Assembly: GCA_021820845.1 (NCBI GenBank)
Contig: JAKADC010000006.1
Span: 1-64,000, forward strand
Length of the DNA: 64,000 bases
From: Pseudomonadota bacterium
GTDB taxonomy: Bacteria > Pseudomonadota > Gammaproteobacteria > Burkholderiales > Thiobacillaceae
Direction of reading: 5' to 3'
Part shown: positions 8,987 to 30,876 of the stretch, one piece after another
Layout of the letters: every line of letters starts with the position of its first letter
Numbering within the stretch: the stretch's first letter is position 1
Made by a program: the position numbers and the translations under genes
The notes under the pieces: generated by a model
Told to the model about the DNA's origin: nothing
The model's database searches: none
The model's input: the letters and a program-made list of their open reading frames with translations, nothing else

Positions 8987-9109
8987 ACCTCAGGGGCGGG
9001 GATTCGGGATCCGGGGGGCAGGGAGCGCGTGGCCGATGGCCCCGCTTTTATTGAATAAGGCGCGCAGCGGCTTACCCTGAATCCTGACCCCCGATCCCTG
9101 AATCCTGCC

Positions 9110-24260: not shown

Positions 24261-25076
24261 ATGTCCGACATCCTCGAAAAGATCCTCGCCACCAAGCGCG
24301 ACGAAATCGCCAGGGCGGTCGCCGCCGTGCCGCTGGCCGAGATGCGGGCACGCGCGGAAGCAGCCGCGCCGCCGCGTGATTTCGTCGGCGCCCTGCGCGC
24401 GAAGATCGCCGTCGGCCGGCCGGCGGTGATCGCCGAAATCAAGAAGGCGAGTCCGTCCAAGGGGGTGATCCGTCCCGATTTCCGTCCCGCCGAGATCGCG
24501 GCGAGCTACGAAGCCGGCGGCGCGGCGTGCCTGTCGGTGCTGACCGACCGCGATTATTTCCAGGGCTGCCCGGAATACCTACAGGCGGCGCGCGCGGCGT
24601 GCCGGCTGCCGGTGCTGCGCAAGGACTTCATCGTCGACCCGTATCAGGTCTACGAGGCGCGTGCGATGGGCGCCGATTGCATCCTGCTGATCGTCGCCGC
24701 GCTCGAACTGCCGGCGATGCAGGCGCTGGAGGTGCTGGCGCACGAGCTGGGGATGGCGGTGCTGGTCGAGTCGCACGACGCCGCGGAGCTCGACGCCGCG
24801 CTGACGCTGAAGACGCCCTTGCAGGGCATCAACAACCGCAACCTGCGCAGCTTCGAGGTGAGCCTCGACACGACGCTGTCGCTGCTGCCGAAGATCGGCA
24901 ATGACCGCATCGTCATCACCGAATCCGGCATCCTCGCGCCGGCCGACGTGGCCAGGATGCGCAGCCACGCCGTCAACGCTTTCCTGGTCGGCGAAGCCTT
25001 CATGCGCGCCCCTGACCCCGGAGTCGAACTGGCCAGGTTGTTTGCCGTGCAAAGGGGGCAGCTTGCGCAGGACTGA
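24261..25076 (+). CDS. trpC: Indole-3-glycerol phosphate synthase (3' end probably recombinant)
   Basis: [85 protein letters not shown]-terminus ...[20 protein letters not shown] differs from the duplicated 3' fragment near 30.8 kb. Confidence 0.94.
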
Positions 25077-25407
25077 CCCGCGAGCAGCGGCTTTGGCGCT
25101 CGCGCTGATTGCGCCGGGGGTTGGCGCCGACGAAACGGGTGTGCGAGAGGCCACATTCAGCCTGTATGCACCTCAGGCGAAATCGGTCGAAATCATCGGC
25201 GATTTTAACCAATGGCAAAGAGGGATCACGCCCTTGGCCGGTCCGGACAAAGCGGGCTGGTGGCGGATCAGGCTGACGTTTCCGGGTCCCGGGAGCCGCA
25301 TCGAATACGTTTACTGGGTGAATAACGCTTACCGGCAGGTTGACCCGGAACAACCCGTTGTTCCGGATGGGTTTTCTGGTGCAAACAATGTCCTTGTCCT
25401 CCCATAG
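25063..25407 (+). CDS. Exported CBM48/glycogen-binding-like domain protein
   Basis: TTG start with ggggg SD inside the trpC 3' end; short signal peptide then [65 protein letters not shown]. Confidence 0.65.
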
Positions 25408-25428
25408 TCCACATCCGGTTCCACGAAG

Positions 25429-25456
25429 TGTAACTTCTTTGGCTCACGCCTCGTCT
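25429..25456 (+). promoter_or_regulatory. Candidate ECF promoter P1 (upstream of the ECF sigma gene)
   Basis: TGTAAC (25429-25434) - 17 nt - CGTCT (25452-25456). Confidence 0.75.
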
Positions 25457-25511
25457 CAAGGGAAAATTAAACCAAGCCTTGATTAAGGCTATGTGAGAGG
25501 GATGGCGTGTG

Positions 25512-26060
25512 ATGTCCGAAGACAAGGCGCTGATCGATGCCTGCCTGGCGGGACGCTTGGAAGCCTATGAGGCCCTGGTTAGACGTCATCAACAGAAGGT
25601 GTTTAACGTGCTGTATCGGTTTCTCGGCAATTACGAGGCGAGCCAGGACCTCAGTCAGGAAACCTTCCTTTCCGCCTACCAGAAGCTTGGCACGTTTGGC
25701 GGGAAAAGTGCGCTTTCCACCTGGCTGTGCCAGATCGCGCTCAACAAGGCGCGCGACATGCTGCGCAGCAATGGCGTCAACTCGCTCTGCGAGGATGTGG
25801 AGGATCATGGCGACACGCTGGTCGCGGCTGACACGACGCGGCCCGATCGTCGGGCGGAACAGGGGCAGGCGCGGGAGCGTATCCAAGGGATACTCAACCG
25901 CATGCCCCCACATTACCGGGAGGTTTTGATATTGAAGCATCTGGAAGAGCACAGCAACGAGGAGATCGCCGCCATGCTCGACGAGACCGTGGACAACGTG
26001 AAGGTGAGGACGTTTCGCGCGCGCCAGATGTTCAAGCAATTATTTGGAGAGTTGTCATGA
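25512..26060 (+). CDS. ECF-type RNA polymerase sigma factor
   Basis: Region 2 VFNVLYRFLGNYEASQDLSQETFLSAYQKLGTFGGKSALSTWLCQIALNKARDMLR; region 4 NRMPPHYREVLILKHLEEHSNEEIAAMLDETVDNVKVRTFRARQMF. Confidence 0.93.
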   Translation: MSEDKALIDACLAGRLEAYEALVRRHQQKVFNVLYRFLGNYEASQDLSQETFLSAYQKLGTFGGKSALSTWLCQIALNKARDMLRSNGVNSLCEDVEDHGDTLVAADTTRPDRRAEQGQARERIQGILNRMPPHYREVLILKHLEEHSNEEIAAMLDETVDNVKVRTFRARQMFKQLFGELS

Positions 26061-26728
26061 ACGCATTGCAATTCGACGAAGCCTGGCAGCGTTGTCTGGA
26101 TCGGGAAATGGGCCGATCCGAAGAAACCGTTTTTCTCGCTCGCCTGAGCGAGGCCGAGCGCCTGGAACTGTTCGCCACCCGCGCGGCGCTGGGTGAGCTG
26201 GAATGCCTGCCGCGCATTTCCGCTCCGGCCGATCTCGCGGCCAGGGTCATGGTGGCAATCAGCCCCAAAAAGCAAAGCGCTTTCACCCGCTTGCGCCGCT
26301 GGCTGGAGTCCCGTCCCATGCTGGGGTGGGAATTCGGCGGCGCGGCGCTGGCGGCCTCGGTGCTGTTCGTTACGCTGGCGCCCCAGTTCATGACGCTCCC
26401 GGCCGGCGGTTCGCCGCACGCGTCGCCCTCTCTGATGCCGGTCTCGCATGCGCCCGGCGGCAACGGCGGCGCATTGCAGTTCAGCCTGTACGCGCCCCAA
26501 GCCCGCAGCGTGGCGCTGATTGGCGATTTCAATGGCTGGGGCAGCACGGCTGAAATCAAGCTGAAGCCTGCCGCCAACGGCATGTGGAGCGTGGCCGTGC
26601 CCTTGCCCGCCGGCTCTTACCAGTACGCCTTTCTGCTTGACGACCGGCGCTGGGTAACCGATCCGCGCGCCGAACGGCGTGTGAACGACGATTTCGGCAG
26701 GCAGAACGCGGTTGTCACCATTATCTAG
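26057..26728 (+). CDS. Anti-sigma-like membrane protein with C-terminal CBM48/glycogen-binding-like domain
   Basis: ATGA overlap with the sigma gene; cytosolic N-terminus (EETVFLARLSEAERLELFATRAALGELECL), TM FGGAALAASVLFVTLAP, then [62 protein letters not shown]. Confidence 0.75.
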   Translation: MNALQFDEAWQRCLDREMGRSEETVFLARLSEAERLELFATRAALGELECLPRISAPADLAARVMVAISPKKQSAFTRLRRWLESRPMLGWEFGGAALAASVLFVTLAPQFMTLPAGGSPHASPSLMPVSHAPGGNGGALQFSLYAPQARSVALIGDFNGWGSTAEIKLKPAANGMWSVAVPLPAGSYQYAFLLDDRRWVTDPRAERRVNDDFGRQNAVVTII

Positions 26729-26733
26729 GACAC

Positions 26734-27687
26734 ATGATCATGATCCTCTCTCGCTTTTTCATTCTGCTGTCCGGCCTGTTGTTGGCAGTGGGTGCGCGCG
26801 CAGAGCTCCCCGCACCACTGGAGCAGGCCGCAGCCCAGGTCGCCAGCGTGCCGACCCAACGCCAGGCCTTGGTTGCCGACCTGGAAGGCGCCCTGAAGTC
26901 GGGCGTGGCGGAACAGGATTTGCAGTCGGTGATGCGGCTGGCCGCGGCGCAGAAATATTCCGCCGCCCATGCCGCGGCTTTCGTCCGGCAACTCGCTGCT
27001 GTGCGCCGGGATGACCTGCCTGCCGCGCTGGTGCGCGACAAGATACTGGAAGGCATGGCCAAGAAAGTACCAGCCGAGTCTATCCTGCTGGTGACGTCCC
27101 AGTGGCAGGGCGCCCTGAAGGACGCCGCTTCGGTCGTGCGGACAATGGAAGGGCGTGGCCTCGAATATGGCAAGGCCGGAGAACGCGAGACGCTGATCAA
27201 CCTGGGTGCCGGTCTGCGGCAGCGCTACGGCGCAAAGGACGCACTCCCCAGCCTGGCGAAATCCGCGGAGAAGGGCGGCCGGATGGCGTCCGGCGCCGAG
27301 AACCTGATCGCTGCCGGGAATCTGGCCGAGCTGTTGTTCCTGCACAACGCCACCGCGGCGCAAGCACTGGAATTGCCCATGTCGAGCCTGAGGGCAGCTT
27401 ATACTCCGGCGCAGATTCAGGCGCTGCAGCGCAGCGTGCTGGACCAGTTGCGCCAAGGCGTGGCGCCTGTCGACGTCGTTGCGGGCGTGCGGCGCCGATT
27501 CGATTCCAAAACAGACACCACTCCGCCGGCACAATCGACGTTTTCCAACCCTGGCCAGGCACCCGGAGGGGCATGGCCGGGCGGTGCGCCGGGTGGGGGC
27601 TTCCCGGGTGGGGGCGGTGCGCCGGGTGGCATGCCGGGCGGCGGGTTTCCCGGCGGTGGTTCTCCCAGAGGTGGAGGTGGCTATTGA
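26734..27687 (+). CDS. Exported helical protein with Gly/Pro-rich C-terminal tail
   Basis: Signal peptide LLSGLLLAVGARAELP; C-terminal PGGAWPGGAPGGGFPGGGGAPGGMPGGGFPGGGSPRGGGGY. Confidence 0.75.
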   Translation: MIMILSRFFILLSGLLLAVGARAELPAPLEQAAAQVASVPTQRQALVADLEGALKSGVAEQDLQSVMRLAAAQKYSAAHAAAFVRQLAAVRRDDLPAALVRDKILEGMAKKVPAESILLVTSQWQGALKDAASVVRTMEGRGLEYGKAGERETLINLGAGLRQRYGAKDALPSLAKSAEKGGRMASGAENLIAAGNLAELLFLHNATAAQALELPMSSLRAAYTPAQIQALQRSVLDQLRQGVAPVDVVAGVRRRFDSKTDTTPPAQSTFSNPGQAPGGAWPGGAPGGGFPGGGGAPGGMPGGGFPGGGSPRGGGGY

Positions 27688-27803
27688 ACTTTATGCCTAG
27701 TGCGTGGGAGGTAGGGAGTAGGCTTGCATTGCTTTGTTGTGAAAAATTTTTGAATGGCATGGCCATTATTACCTGAAACAACCCTAAAGAAAGGATGTAC
27801 CAA

Positions 27804-28595
27804 ATGGGCTTTAACACTTCTTCCTGTTTTTACGCCGCGAGCACCGCCATGCTCACGGCGCTCGCCCTGACTGCTCCGGCGCAAGCCGACGTCACCCTGA
27901 ATGCGGGCGCCAGGCTGACGCATGAAACCAACGTCAACGGTTCGCCCGACACGCCGACCAAGGCAAATCAGGAAAGCGATACCTATCTGACGCTGAACGC
28001 CTCCGCGGTTTACTACACGCCGCTCGACACCGCGAAAACCCGCTATTTCATCGGCCAGATCGGTGCGCTCTCTTCCGCCTACGATAAATTCGATAACCTC
28101 GATAACACCATGCTGGTGGCGAGCGGGGGGCTCTATCAACAGCTTTCCTCCTCTTGGTCGGGGCAGGTCACCGGCCGCGGGTTCACACGCGATACCCAGC
28201 AGAGCGCGCGCGACGCCAACGGTTTTGGCGCGACTCTTGAGATCAAGAATCAGTTGAGCCAGAGCGTTTGGATCAAGGCGATCGCCGACTACGAGGACAG
28301 CACCGCCAATCTTGATGCCTTCAGCTACACCGGTAAAACCTACGGCGTGAATCTGGGCTATCTGCCGCTTCAGAATACCCTCCTCAACCTCGGCTACAGC
28401 CACGCCACGCGCGACTTCGAGACTGCCTCGGCTTTCAACACCACCACGCAAACGCTGTTCGCCGACGTGACGCAACGGCTGGCGAAAAACTGGTATCTGA
28501 ACGGCGGCTACGCCTATCAGGACTATGGTTCGAACATCGCAGGAACAGGCTACACCAATCACATTGTGTCGCTTGGCCTGAACTTCAGCTACTGA
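27804..28595 (+). CDS. Outer-membrane beta-barrel protein
   Basis: Signal peptide LTAPAQADVTLNAG; alternating beta-strand pattern; terminal SLGLNFSY aromatic C-terminus. Confidence 0.75.
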   Translation: MGFNTSSCFYAASTAMLTALALTAPAQADVTLNAGARLTHETNVNGSPDTPTKANQESDTYLTLNASAVYYTPLDTAKTRYFIGQIGALSSAYDKFDNLDNTMLVASGGLYQQLSSSWSGQVTGRGFTRDTQQSARDANGFGATLEIKNQLSQSVWIKAIADYEDSTANLDAFSYTGKTYGVNLGYLPLQNTLLNLGYSHATRDFETASAFNTTTQTLFADVTQRLAKNWYLNGGYAYQDYGSNIAGTGYTNHIVSLGLNFSY

Positions 28596-28602
28596 ATCGC
28601 CG

Positions 28603-28630
28603 TGTAACTTAAGCGATACCATCACCGTCT
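28603..28630 (+). promoter_or_regulatory. Candidate ECF promoter P2
   Basis: TGTAAC (28603-28608) - 17 nt - CGTCT (28626-28630). Confidence 0.75.
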
Positions 28631-28697
28631 AAACCTGTAGGAAATGGATTTCGTTTCCCGCGATCAAGGCTTGACCCCAATGACTAAGGAGATTGAA

Positions 28698-29009
28698 ATG
28701 AACATCAAATACGTAATATCGACAGCGGCATGCGCCGTGTTTTTTGCCGGCACCGCCGTGGCAGCCGATCAGGCTGAGCGCGAGCCGGTTGTCGGCTTCG
28801 GCAGCGGAACCGGCATGGGCGCGGGCGGCGCCGCCGGCAGTGCCAGCAGCATGGCCGATGGCTTCGGTGCCCAAATCCAGGCCAGCGGCGCGGGCAGCCA
28901 GAGCTTCGGCGGCGGCTTCAATCAGCAGCAAACCGTGGGCTCCGGCCCGCTTTCGTCGAATCCTTCGACGACGTCAGGTTCCGGGCCGACCTTGACCAAC
29001 CCATACTGA
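28698..29009 (+). CDS. Exported Gly/Ser-rich low-complexity protein
   Basis: MNIKYVISTAACAVFFAGTAVAADQAE signal peptide; GFGSGTGMGAGGAAGSASSMADGFGAQIQASGAGSQSFGGGF. Confidence 0.7.
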   Translation: MNIKYVISTAACAVFFAGTAVAADQAEREPVVGFGSGTGMGAGGAAGSASSMADGFGAQIQASGAGSQSFGGGFNQQQTVGSGPLSSNPSTTSGSGPTLTNPY

Positions 29010-29027
29010 AAACGCAATAGCGCGCGG

Positions 29028-29062
29028 GCCCTTGCCGCAAATGTGGCAAGGGCTTTTTTTTT
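29028..29062 (+). terminator. Rho-independent terminator
   Basis: GCCCTTGCC-gcaaatgt-GGCAAGGGC followed by a long T run. Confidence 0.88.
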
Positions 29063-29073
29063 GGAACTTCCAG

Positions 29074-29101
29074 CGTAACTTTCCCGAGCAATGTCTCGTC
29101 T
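29074..29101 (+). promoter_or_regulatory. Candidate ECF promoter P3
   Basis: CGTAAC (29074-29079) - 17 nt - CGTCT (29097-29101). Confidence 0.68.
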
Positions 29102-29130
29102 CAGGAATTTTTCCTTGCTGGATTTTTCGA

Positions 29131-29535
29131 ATGGTCGAAAATCATTCATGTGCGGTTGCAATGTTGATTGCGCAGCTCACATTCCGTGGAATGCCGCTTG
29201 CTCAAGGGATGAGGCTAGCCACGCTGATCCGCCTGCATGGGGTGCAGGACAGCGAAGTGCACAGCCTGCTCAACGCTGCCAGGGACCTCCCGATTTCCGA
29301 TCCCCCGGAAAAACCGATATGCCTTGGCAAGCACACATTTCCCAGTGCGGGTGAAATGGCTAGCCATCTCATCACGTTTGGGCTTTCCCAAAAACTCGGC
29401 GTCGAAAAAATAGGCATGCTCATCTGCATTGCAGGGTGGATGCTCCGCGCAGAGCTTGAGCCGAAGCAGACCGTCCGCATTATGGGTGATGCAATCCAGT
29501 CAGCAGTGCTCAAAGCGAACTCCACGCACAGCTAA
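29131..29535 (+). CDS. Hypothetical protein, candidate ECF-regulon member
   Basis: Downstream of P3; MVENHSCAVAMLIAQLTFRGMPLAQGMRLATLIRLHGVQDSEVHSLLNAARDLP...; start chosen just after the putative promoter; SD weak. Confidence 0.5.
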   Translation: MVENHSCAVAMLIAQLTFRGMPLAQGMRLATLIRLHGVQDSEVHSLLNAARDLPISDPPEKPICLGKHTFPSAGEMASHLITFGLSQKLGVEKIGMLICIAGWMLRAELEPKQTVRIMGDAIQSAVLKANSTHS

Positions 29536-29671
29536 CGGGCGTCAGGACAAAGGCGGCTGCATCTCTCCCTACCCTGGACGCGCCGCAATAATGAACCGGA
29601 AGTTCCCGGCATGCCAATCGTCCCTGCGAGGATAGGTTTTCCGCAATTTTGCAGGATTTTGGATAGGGCGC

Positions 29672-29699
29672 TGTAACCGACGAATGCAATATTACGTCT
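29672..29699 (+). promoter_or_regulatory. Candidate ECF promoter P4
   Basis: TGTAAC (29672-29677) - 17 nt - CGTCT (29695-29699). Confidence 0.72.
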
Positions 29700-29792
29700 A
29701 AGGATGCAACAGGAGACAAATCAATGGGCTCTCTGTTCACCGCTGAACCGGGTGGGTCGAATCAACCGTCAAACCGTCACAGGAGTTTTATC

Positions 29793-30422
29793 ATGATCAA
29801 GAATGTTCCCTCTGCAATTGCAATCGCACTGCTGGCCGCTTTTCTGAGCGGTAACGCCGCGGCCGCCACCGAGCAGGAAGCGCAGGCTCAATTGGATCGC
29901 ATCCCGGCCCAGACTGCCGGTGTTCGCCAAGCCGCCCATGCCGTGCTGAGCGACCTGGTGTCGGCCGGTGTGCCTGTCGACCAAGCCTATGAGGTTGTGC
30001 GCAGCGCTATTGCGCACGATTACAGCGCCAGTGACCTGCGCCAGGTCGGGGCTGAAATCCGCGACCAGGTCCGGCAAGGCATCCCGGCCGAGCCTGTGAC
30101 CAAGCTTGCGGATCGGGCAATCGACGCGGGAAATTCCGCCGCGGCCACCCAGAATGTCCTCAACACCTTCCAGGCGCGAGTTGAGCAGGGTATGCCAGCT
30201 GACCAGGCTTACGCCAGCAGCTCGCAAGAAGTTGGTGGCGCCGGCATGGGCGGCGGCGCTGGCATGGGTGGCGGCGCCGGCATGGGTGGCGGCGCCGGCA
30301 TGGGTGGCGGCGCCGGCATGGGTGGCGGCGCCGGCATGGGCGGTGGCGCCGGCATGGGCGGTGGCGCTGGCATGGGCGGTGGCGCCGGCATGGGCGGTGG
30401 CGCCGGCATGGGTGGGCGCTAG
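29793..30422 (+). CDS. Exported protein with ten tandem GGGAGM-type repeats
   Basis: MIKNVPSAIAIALLAAFLSGNAAAATE signal peptide, helical VSAGVPVDQAYEVV / QGIPAEPVTKLAD / QGMPADQAYASS repeats, then (GGGAGM)n. Confidence 0.78.
   Translation: MIKNVPSAIAIALLAAFLSGNAAAATEQEAQAQLDRIPAQTAGVRQAAHAVLSDLVSAGVPVDQAYEVVRSAIAHDYSASDLRQVGAEIRDQVRQGIPAEPVTKLADRAIDAGNSAAATQNVLNTFQARVEQGMPADQAYASSSQEVGGAGMGGGAGMGGGAGMGGGAGMGGGAGMGGGAGMGGGAGMGGGAGMGGGAGMGGGAGMGGR
30235..30418 (+). repeat. 18-bp in-frame tandem repeat, about 10 copies
   Basis: Repeated ggcgccggcatgggtggc / ggcgccggcatgggcggt with synonymous T/C changes. Confidence 0.93.
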
Positions 30423-30504: not shown

Positions 30505-30648
30505 GCTTGGCAAACCGTCCTTTCGGAGCGGGGACATTCCCTAAGTGGAGTTCCTTACGACGTTGTTCCCGGCAAAGCCGGGTCGAGTCGCGGGCGGTTT
30601 CATCCGGCAGGATGAGGTGCCCCCCGAAAGATCGTCAATCGCCACGTG

Positions 30649-30876
30649 CAAGGCATCCACAACCGCCATCTGCGTACCTTCGAGGTGAGCCCCGACACGA
30701 CGCTTTCGCTGCTGCCGAAGATCGGCGGCGACCGCATCGTCATCACCGAATCCGGCATCCTCGCGCCGGCCGACGTGGCCAGGATGCGCAGCCACGCCGT
30801 CAACGCTTTCCTGGTCGGCGGAGCCTTCATGCGCGCCGCCGATCCGGGCGCCGAGCTCGCGCGGCTGTTCGCCTGA
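30649..30876 (+). pseudogene. Duplicated 3' fragment of trpC
   Basis: [75 protein letters not shown]; 91 bp (30730-30820) identical to trpC 24903-24993. Confidence 0.95.

Follow-up and report, generated by a model that had tools for sequence, protein, structure and literature searches.

A gene cassette in the window (the whole stretch of DNA analysed, 64,000 nt) very probably encodes an ECF sigma factor that activates its own expression and controls a small, local set of genes, namely the cassette itself. The cassette genes follow one another in the order exported CBM48-domain protein, ECF sigma factor, likely anti-sigma factor, p3, p4, p5, p6 and p7. A local, autoregulated regulon is well supported by the confinement of the promoter motif to the cassette, by the N17 spacing of the sites in relatives, by an A that was invariant without having been searched for, and by the low background in congeners.

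Predicted promoter motif and its distribution

Exact matches to YGTAAC-N17-CGTCT were found at 25429–25456, 28603–28630, 29074–29101 and 29672–29699, all on the plus strand and within 4.3 kb, against 0.01 expected per window from dinucleotide shuffles. The preliminary description had placed (T/C)GTAAC-N17-CGTCT at these four starts, always with 17 nt between the boxes and upstream of the ECF sigma gene and three other cassette genes, and was confirmed on each of these points. The sites lie in the intergenic gaps 25408–25511, 28596–28697, 29010–29130 and 29536–29792 (limits set by gene starts that are partly inferred), each upstream of a gene. Extended by two bases, they were taken as the predicted ECF promoters P1 (TGTAAC-N17-CGTCTCA, 25429–25458, plus strand, upstream of the sigma gene), P2 (TGTAAC-N17-CGTCTAA, 28603–28632, plus strand, upstream of p5), P3 (CGTAAC-N17-CGTCTCA, 29074–29103, plus strand, upstream of p6) and P4 (TGTAAC-N17-CGTCTAA, 29672–29701, plus strand, upstream of p7). 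P3 follows directly on a terminator-like hairpin with a T run (29026–29062, plus strand) between p5 and P3, which suggests that p6 needs a promoter of its own. The AAC in the −35 and the CGT in the −10 element, described beforehand as typical of ECF factors, agree by sequence match with the listed ECF hallmarks (AAC/CGT promoters, a co-transcribed anti-sigma factor and autoregulation; PMC8103513). For Bacillus subtilis SigX, a passage quoted in PMC12153292 gives TGTAAC as the −35 and CGWC as the −10 element.

Genome-wide counts were obtained by pattern searches (2,849,024 bases, 24 contigs). GTAAC-N17-CGTCT was matched four times, always at the window sites. When gaps of 8–30 were allowed, 12 further matches were obtained at other spacings; they were scattered over spacings and both strands and therefore represent a background of about half a match per spacing. 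The variant GTAAC-N17-CGTCNNA gave one additional match in the same genome, antisense within a coding gene, and apart from this match the genome pattern search revealed no further regulon members outside the cassette. The absence of the strict motif elsewhere supports the claim of a self-contained regulon; weaker variant sites may still exist in the rest of the genome.

Related cassettes were found in four other genomes. Three were identified in the p3 search, namely Thiobacillus MAG_95 (L031), LL2.bin39 (L032) and SKS1.bin131 (L033, on the same contig as L030); the fourth, G576 (L075), belongs to another family of the class, its sigma factor being 61% identical and its anti-sigma factor 38%. 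In these cassettes a further 13 sites, each with N17, precede the equivalent genes. P1 and P4 have counterparts in L031, L032, L030 and L075, P2 in L031, L032 and L030, and P3 in L031. A site is thus present before p7, as before the sigma gene, in 5/5 cassettes, before p5 in four, and before p6 in both cassettes that carry p6. Only the sites at the sigma gene and p7 are clear in L075, the most diverged cassette. The GTAAC and CGTC parts in the relatives were located by searching for them, so that their invariance is partly due to selection. The A two bases after CGTCY was never part of any search and is invariant at 17/17 sites of the five cassettes, which extends the motif to GTAAC-N17-CGTCYNA. 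Among the 17 sites the hexamer may begin with T, C or A, and one site has an A in place of the Y. When the window is compared with L031, none of the ten box positions differs at any of the four sites (40/40 identical), as against 141/232 identical bases around them. GTAAC-N17-CGTCYNA was also counted in 57 Thiobacillus genomes: two carriers of the cassette gave 4 and 5 matches, and the 55 genomes without it gave 0–2 each. Reading of the ORFs around the promoter-like matches in the congeners G076 and G079 did not reveal a related sigma gene or cassette gene. L032 has an additional TGTAAC-N17-CGTCC site (9018–9045) upstream of the barrel gene p4; in the window no site was found upstream of p4.

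These distributions bear on what the sites are. That they form a chance cluster or duplicated sequence has a negligible probability. A chance cluster was ruled out by the expectation per window, the genome-wide confinement and the conservation in diverged cassettes. Duplicated promoter blocks were rejected on their unrelated spacers and flanks: the four window sites share 1–7 of 17 spacer positions, and their 40-bp flanks are identical at 8–14 of 40 positions, so they are not recent duplicates. The earlier view of functional conservation in place of duplication is supported. Its premise of unrelated spacers holds without being absolute, since the sigma and p6 sites are slightly alike (TT...CGTCTCA, 7/17 spacer positions). 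A sigma-70 region 2 is present in eight proteins of the genome, and the sites could be promoters of another host sigma factor while the cassette sigma factor controls something else; this is improbable, as the motif is restricted to the cassette in this genome, is at background in the 55 cassette-free congeners and travels with the cassette sigma gene to other genomic locations. Short, two-part sites upstream of genes would also suit a DNA-binding regulator in place of RNA polymerase with an ECF sigma factor. Such an explanation is very improbable given that the sites are asymmetric, always point toward the gene, have a fixed −35/−10-like spacing and ECF-type AAC/CGT cores, and that the cassette encodes a sigma factor and, by Pfam, no other recognisable DNA-binding regulator. 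Recognition of P1–P4 by the cassette sigma factor is thus the preferred reading.

Sigma factor, likely anti-sigma factor and candidate signal

The sigma gene (25512–26060, plus strand) encodes a protein of 183 residues in which Pfam places Sigma70_r2 at 23–88 (2e-17) and Sigma70_r4_2 at 123–173 (3e-14); TIGR02937 is over its cut-off. The protein has sigma2 and sigma4 domains only, as in group IV. Positive autoregulation is predicted from the site that precedes the sigma gene, and co-transcription with an anti-sigma factor from the adjoining downstream gene of anti-sigma layout in 5/5 cassettes.

The first 4 bases of this gene (26057–26728, plus strand) lie within the sigma gene. In the encoded protein, helices at the N terminus are followed by one likely membrane helix (hydropathy peak near residue 96) and a C-terminal CBM48/AMPK1_CBM domain (CBM_48, 4e-11; AMPK1_CBM, 5e-9). 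A weak anti-sigma match was obtained with NCBIfam and none to an anti-sigma domain with Pfam. In the structural model, which is of low confidence (mean pLDDT 54.5), helices span residues 3–14, 20–28, 32–49 and 58–67, that is, three plus one before the membrane stretch; class I anti-sigma domains (ASDI) consist of a three-helix bundle plus a fourth helix (PMC7406223). The Hx3Cx2C zinc motif is absent from the protein in the cassette alignment; the motif is optional and is found in about half of ASDI members (PMC7406223).

The profile of the C-terminal domain is over the cut-off, and the domain aligns with the glycogen-binding domains of AMPK-beta. Both aromatic ligand positions of the AMPK-beta glycogen-binding site are kept (W161 and W199) and are invariant in four cassettes. 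Upstream of the sigma gene a second CBM48-domain protein is encoded (25063–25407, plus strand; Pfam CBM_48, 3e-10; TTG start inferred), the gene of which overlaps the trpC end. Its start resembles a signal peptide when read from the sequence, and it is conserved beside the sigma and anti-sigma genes in 5/5 cassettes. When 300 genomes of the order were searched with the anti-sigma protein, the matches besides the window were restricted to the CBM48 region, mostly in long frames of the size of branching enzymes. No relevant paper on an anti-sigma factor with a CBM48, glycogen-binding or isoamylase domain was found in the open-access literature; the CBM48 anti-sigma factor and the target set appear to be undescribed in the literature searched.

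RsgI anti-sigma factors with a C-terminal CBM, which bind polysaccharides, offer a functional parallel (PMC4711584). RsgI1–RsgI6 of Clostridium thermocellum share with the predicted layout of the cassette protein an N-terminal sigma-binding part, one membrane span and an outside CBM at the C terminus (PMC4711584), and by this analogy the CBM48 suggests a carbohydrate signal. The arrangement may work like RsgI without being a member of SigI/RsgI: SigI has a C-terminal domain of its own, different promoters and no sigma4 domain, whereas the cassette sigma factor has sigma4; the RsgI modules are CBM3, PA14 or GH10, and their targets are cellulosomal enzymes, of which the cassette contains none. 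Systems of the RpoE–RseA, SigW–RsiW and SigX type resemble the cassette in the sigma2–sigma4 protein, the overlapping downstream gene (here for a likely anti-sigma factor) and the autoregulatory promoter, which is predicted for the cassette; they differ in that the cassette anti-sigma factor has no zinc motif and ends in CBM48, and in that a single small cassette holds every copy of the strict motif in the genome.

Predicted targets and proposed regulation

The predicted targets are mostly exported, partly glycine-rich, and outer-membrane proteins. p3 (26734–27687, plus strand) is an exported repeat protein, modelled as all-helical with a disordered Gly/Pro-rich tail (pLDDT 77); no family match was found in Pfam or NCBIfam, the model gave no significant fold match in the PDB, and a profile search of solved structures returned nothing useful. 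p4 (27795–28595, plus strand) is an outer-membrane beta-barrel protein with an EpsL-like N terminus (DUF2860 and BBP2_2 just over cut-off). p5 (28698–29009, plus strand) is a small exported Gly/Ser-rich protein (19% Gly, hydrophobic N-terminal signal) with orthologues in L031 and L030. p6 (29131–29535, plus strand, start inferred) has no evident export signal and no Pfam or NCBIfam match; its only orthologue is in L031, and it is absent from 3/5 cassettes. p7 (29793–30422, plus strand) is an exported helical protein with profile similarity to p3 and about ten GGGAGM repeats at its end. The repeats are encoded by an 18-bp tandem repeat (30237–30412, about 9.8 copies), the unit and copy number of which vary between cassettes.

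In the proposed scheme the co-encoded anti-sigma factor would keep the sigma factor at the inner membrane until the periplasmic CBM48 meets its ligand or the anti-sigma factor is cut by proteolysis. The ligand would most likely be an alpha-1,4-glucan or a similar carbohydrate. The released sigma factor would bind RNA polymerase and transcribe from P1–P4: P1 would drive its own operon (sigma factor, anti-sigma factor and p3, with p4 perhaps reached by read-through), P2 would drive p5, P3 p6 and P4 p7. Expression of the regulon would yield glycine-rich exported proteins together with outer-membrane proteins, which probably form a surface or matrix structure.

A glucan as the signal is a tentative proposal, which we hold at somewhat below an even chance; the ligand is a guess, because no glucan-processing enzyme is encoded in the cassette. 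The same regulon could respond to envelope stress with an RseA-like release, the CBM48 being structural or binding another carbohydrate or partner, for example the upstream CBM48 protein. CBM48 domains are also able to mediate protein contacts, and this reading, which we regard as a serious possibility short of being probable, would suit both the largely exported and outer-membrane targets and the missing glycan enzyme; the conservation of both aromatic glucan-site positions across cassettes and the second exported CBM48 protein alongside speak against it. The most specific version of the glucan proposal is a transferable, self-contained module in which the anti-sigma factor directly senses extracytoplasmic alpha-glucan through an AMPK-type CBM48 and switches on a new kind of secreted surface structure, glycine-rich and with helical repeats; taken as a whole, this version is rather unlikely.

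The logic of such a regulon is not new, because small accessory ECF regulons are known: most ECF factors of Sinorhizobium meliloti raise 10 or fewer genes (PMC6180224), and Acinetobacter SigAb has three direct targets and a 17-bp spacer (PMC12153292). The predicted regulon is similarly small and accessory; promoter cores, signals and targets differ, and in the present case all predicted members travel together in a single cassette. What seems new is the sensor domain, together with the set of targets. If the proposed regulation is true, the cassette would provide a compact, orthogonal sigma/promoter set with a strict motif that the host genome lacks elsewhere. Such a set could serve in synthetic biology and in studies of the transfer and insulation of accessory regulons. 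The CBM48 anti-sigma factor would offer a direct test of whether bacteria read outside sugar polymers through an AMPK-like domain.

Origin and rarity of the cassette

The cassette is flanked by two trpC ends on the plus strand: an intact 3' end with donor-type last 49 bases (24820–25046) and a displaced native 3' end, an 89% copy, that forms the right border of the insertion (30647–30873) and now lies 5.8 kb downstream. Over its last 49 bases the intact end matches MAG_95 at 45/49 and the cassette-free G059 at 38/49 positions, whereas the displaced copy matches G059 at 48/49. In many congeners, such as G059, trpC is followed directly by a herA-like gene. These donor-type and native ends indicate that the cassette arrived by recombination in trpC, the simplest reading being a donor piece of trpC plus cassette as in MAG_95. 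Different genes neighbour the cassette in L030, L032 and L075, which argues that it moved as a unit. Having its own sigma switch and four predicted promoters of a kind unique in the genome, the cassette looks like a mobile unit that regulates itself and serves to make secreted and outer-membrane proteins.

The cassette is rare: it was found in 2/57 Thiobacillus genomes, and p3 in 3/118 genomes of the family, the window's own included (a fourth p3 match was short and covered the Gly-rich tail). At the threshold used, sigma orthologues were present in 2/274 genomes of the class and in 0/398 others drawn from the phylum. Plasmid carriage was considered and rejected, as p3 was not matched in any of 72,556 plasmids and CBM48 was matched only partially.

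Gaps of about 1–2 kb between trpC and the herA-like gene were observed in the congeners G060, G079, G083, G090 and G102, so this may be a recurrent insertion spot. On the reverse strand of L075 the CBM48–sigma–anti-sigma block occurs twice, 100% identical and about 4.2 kb apart, near an unaligned gap; the double copy is probably a scaffolding artefact and not a real tandem.
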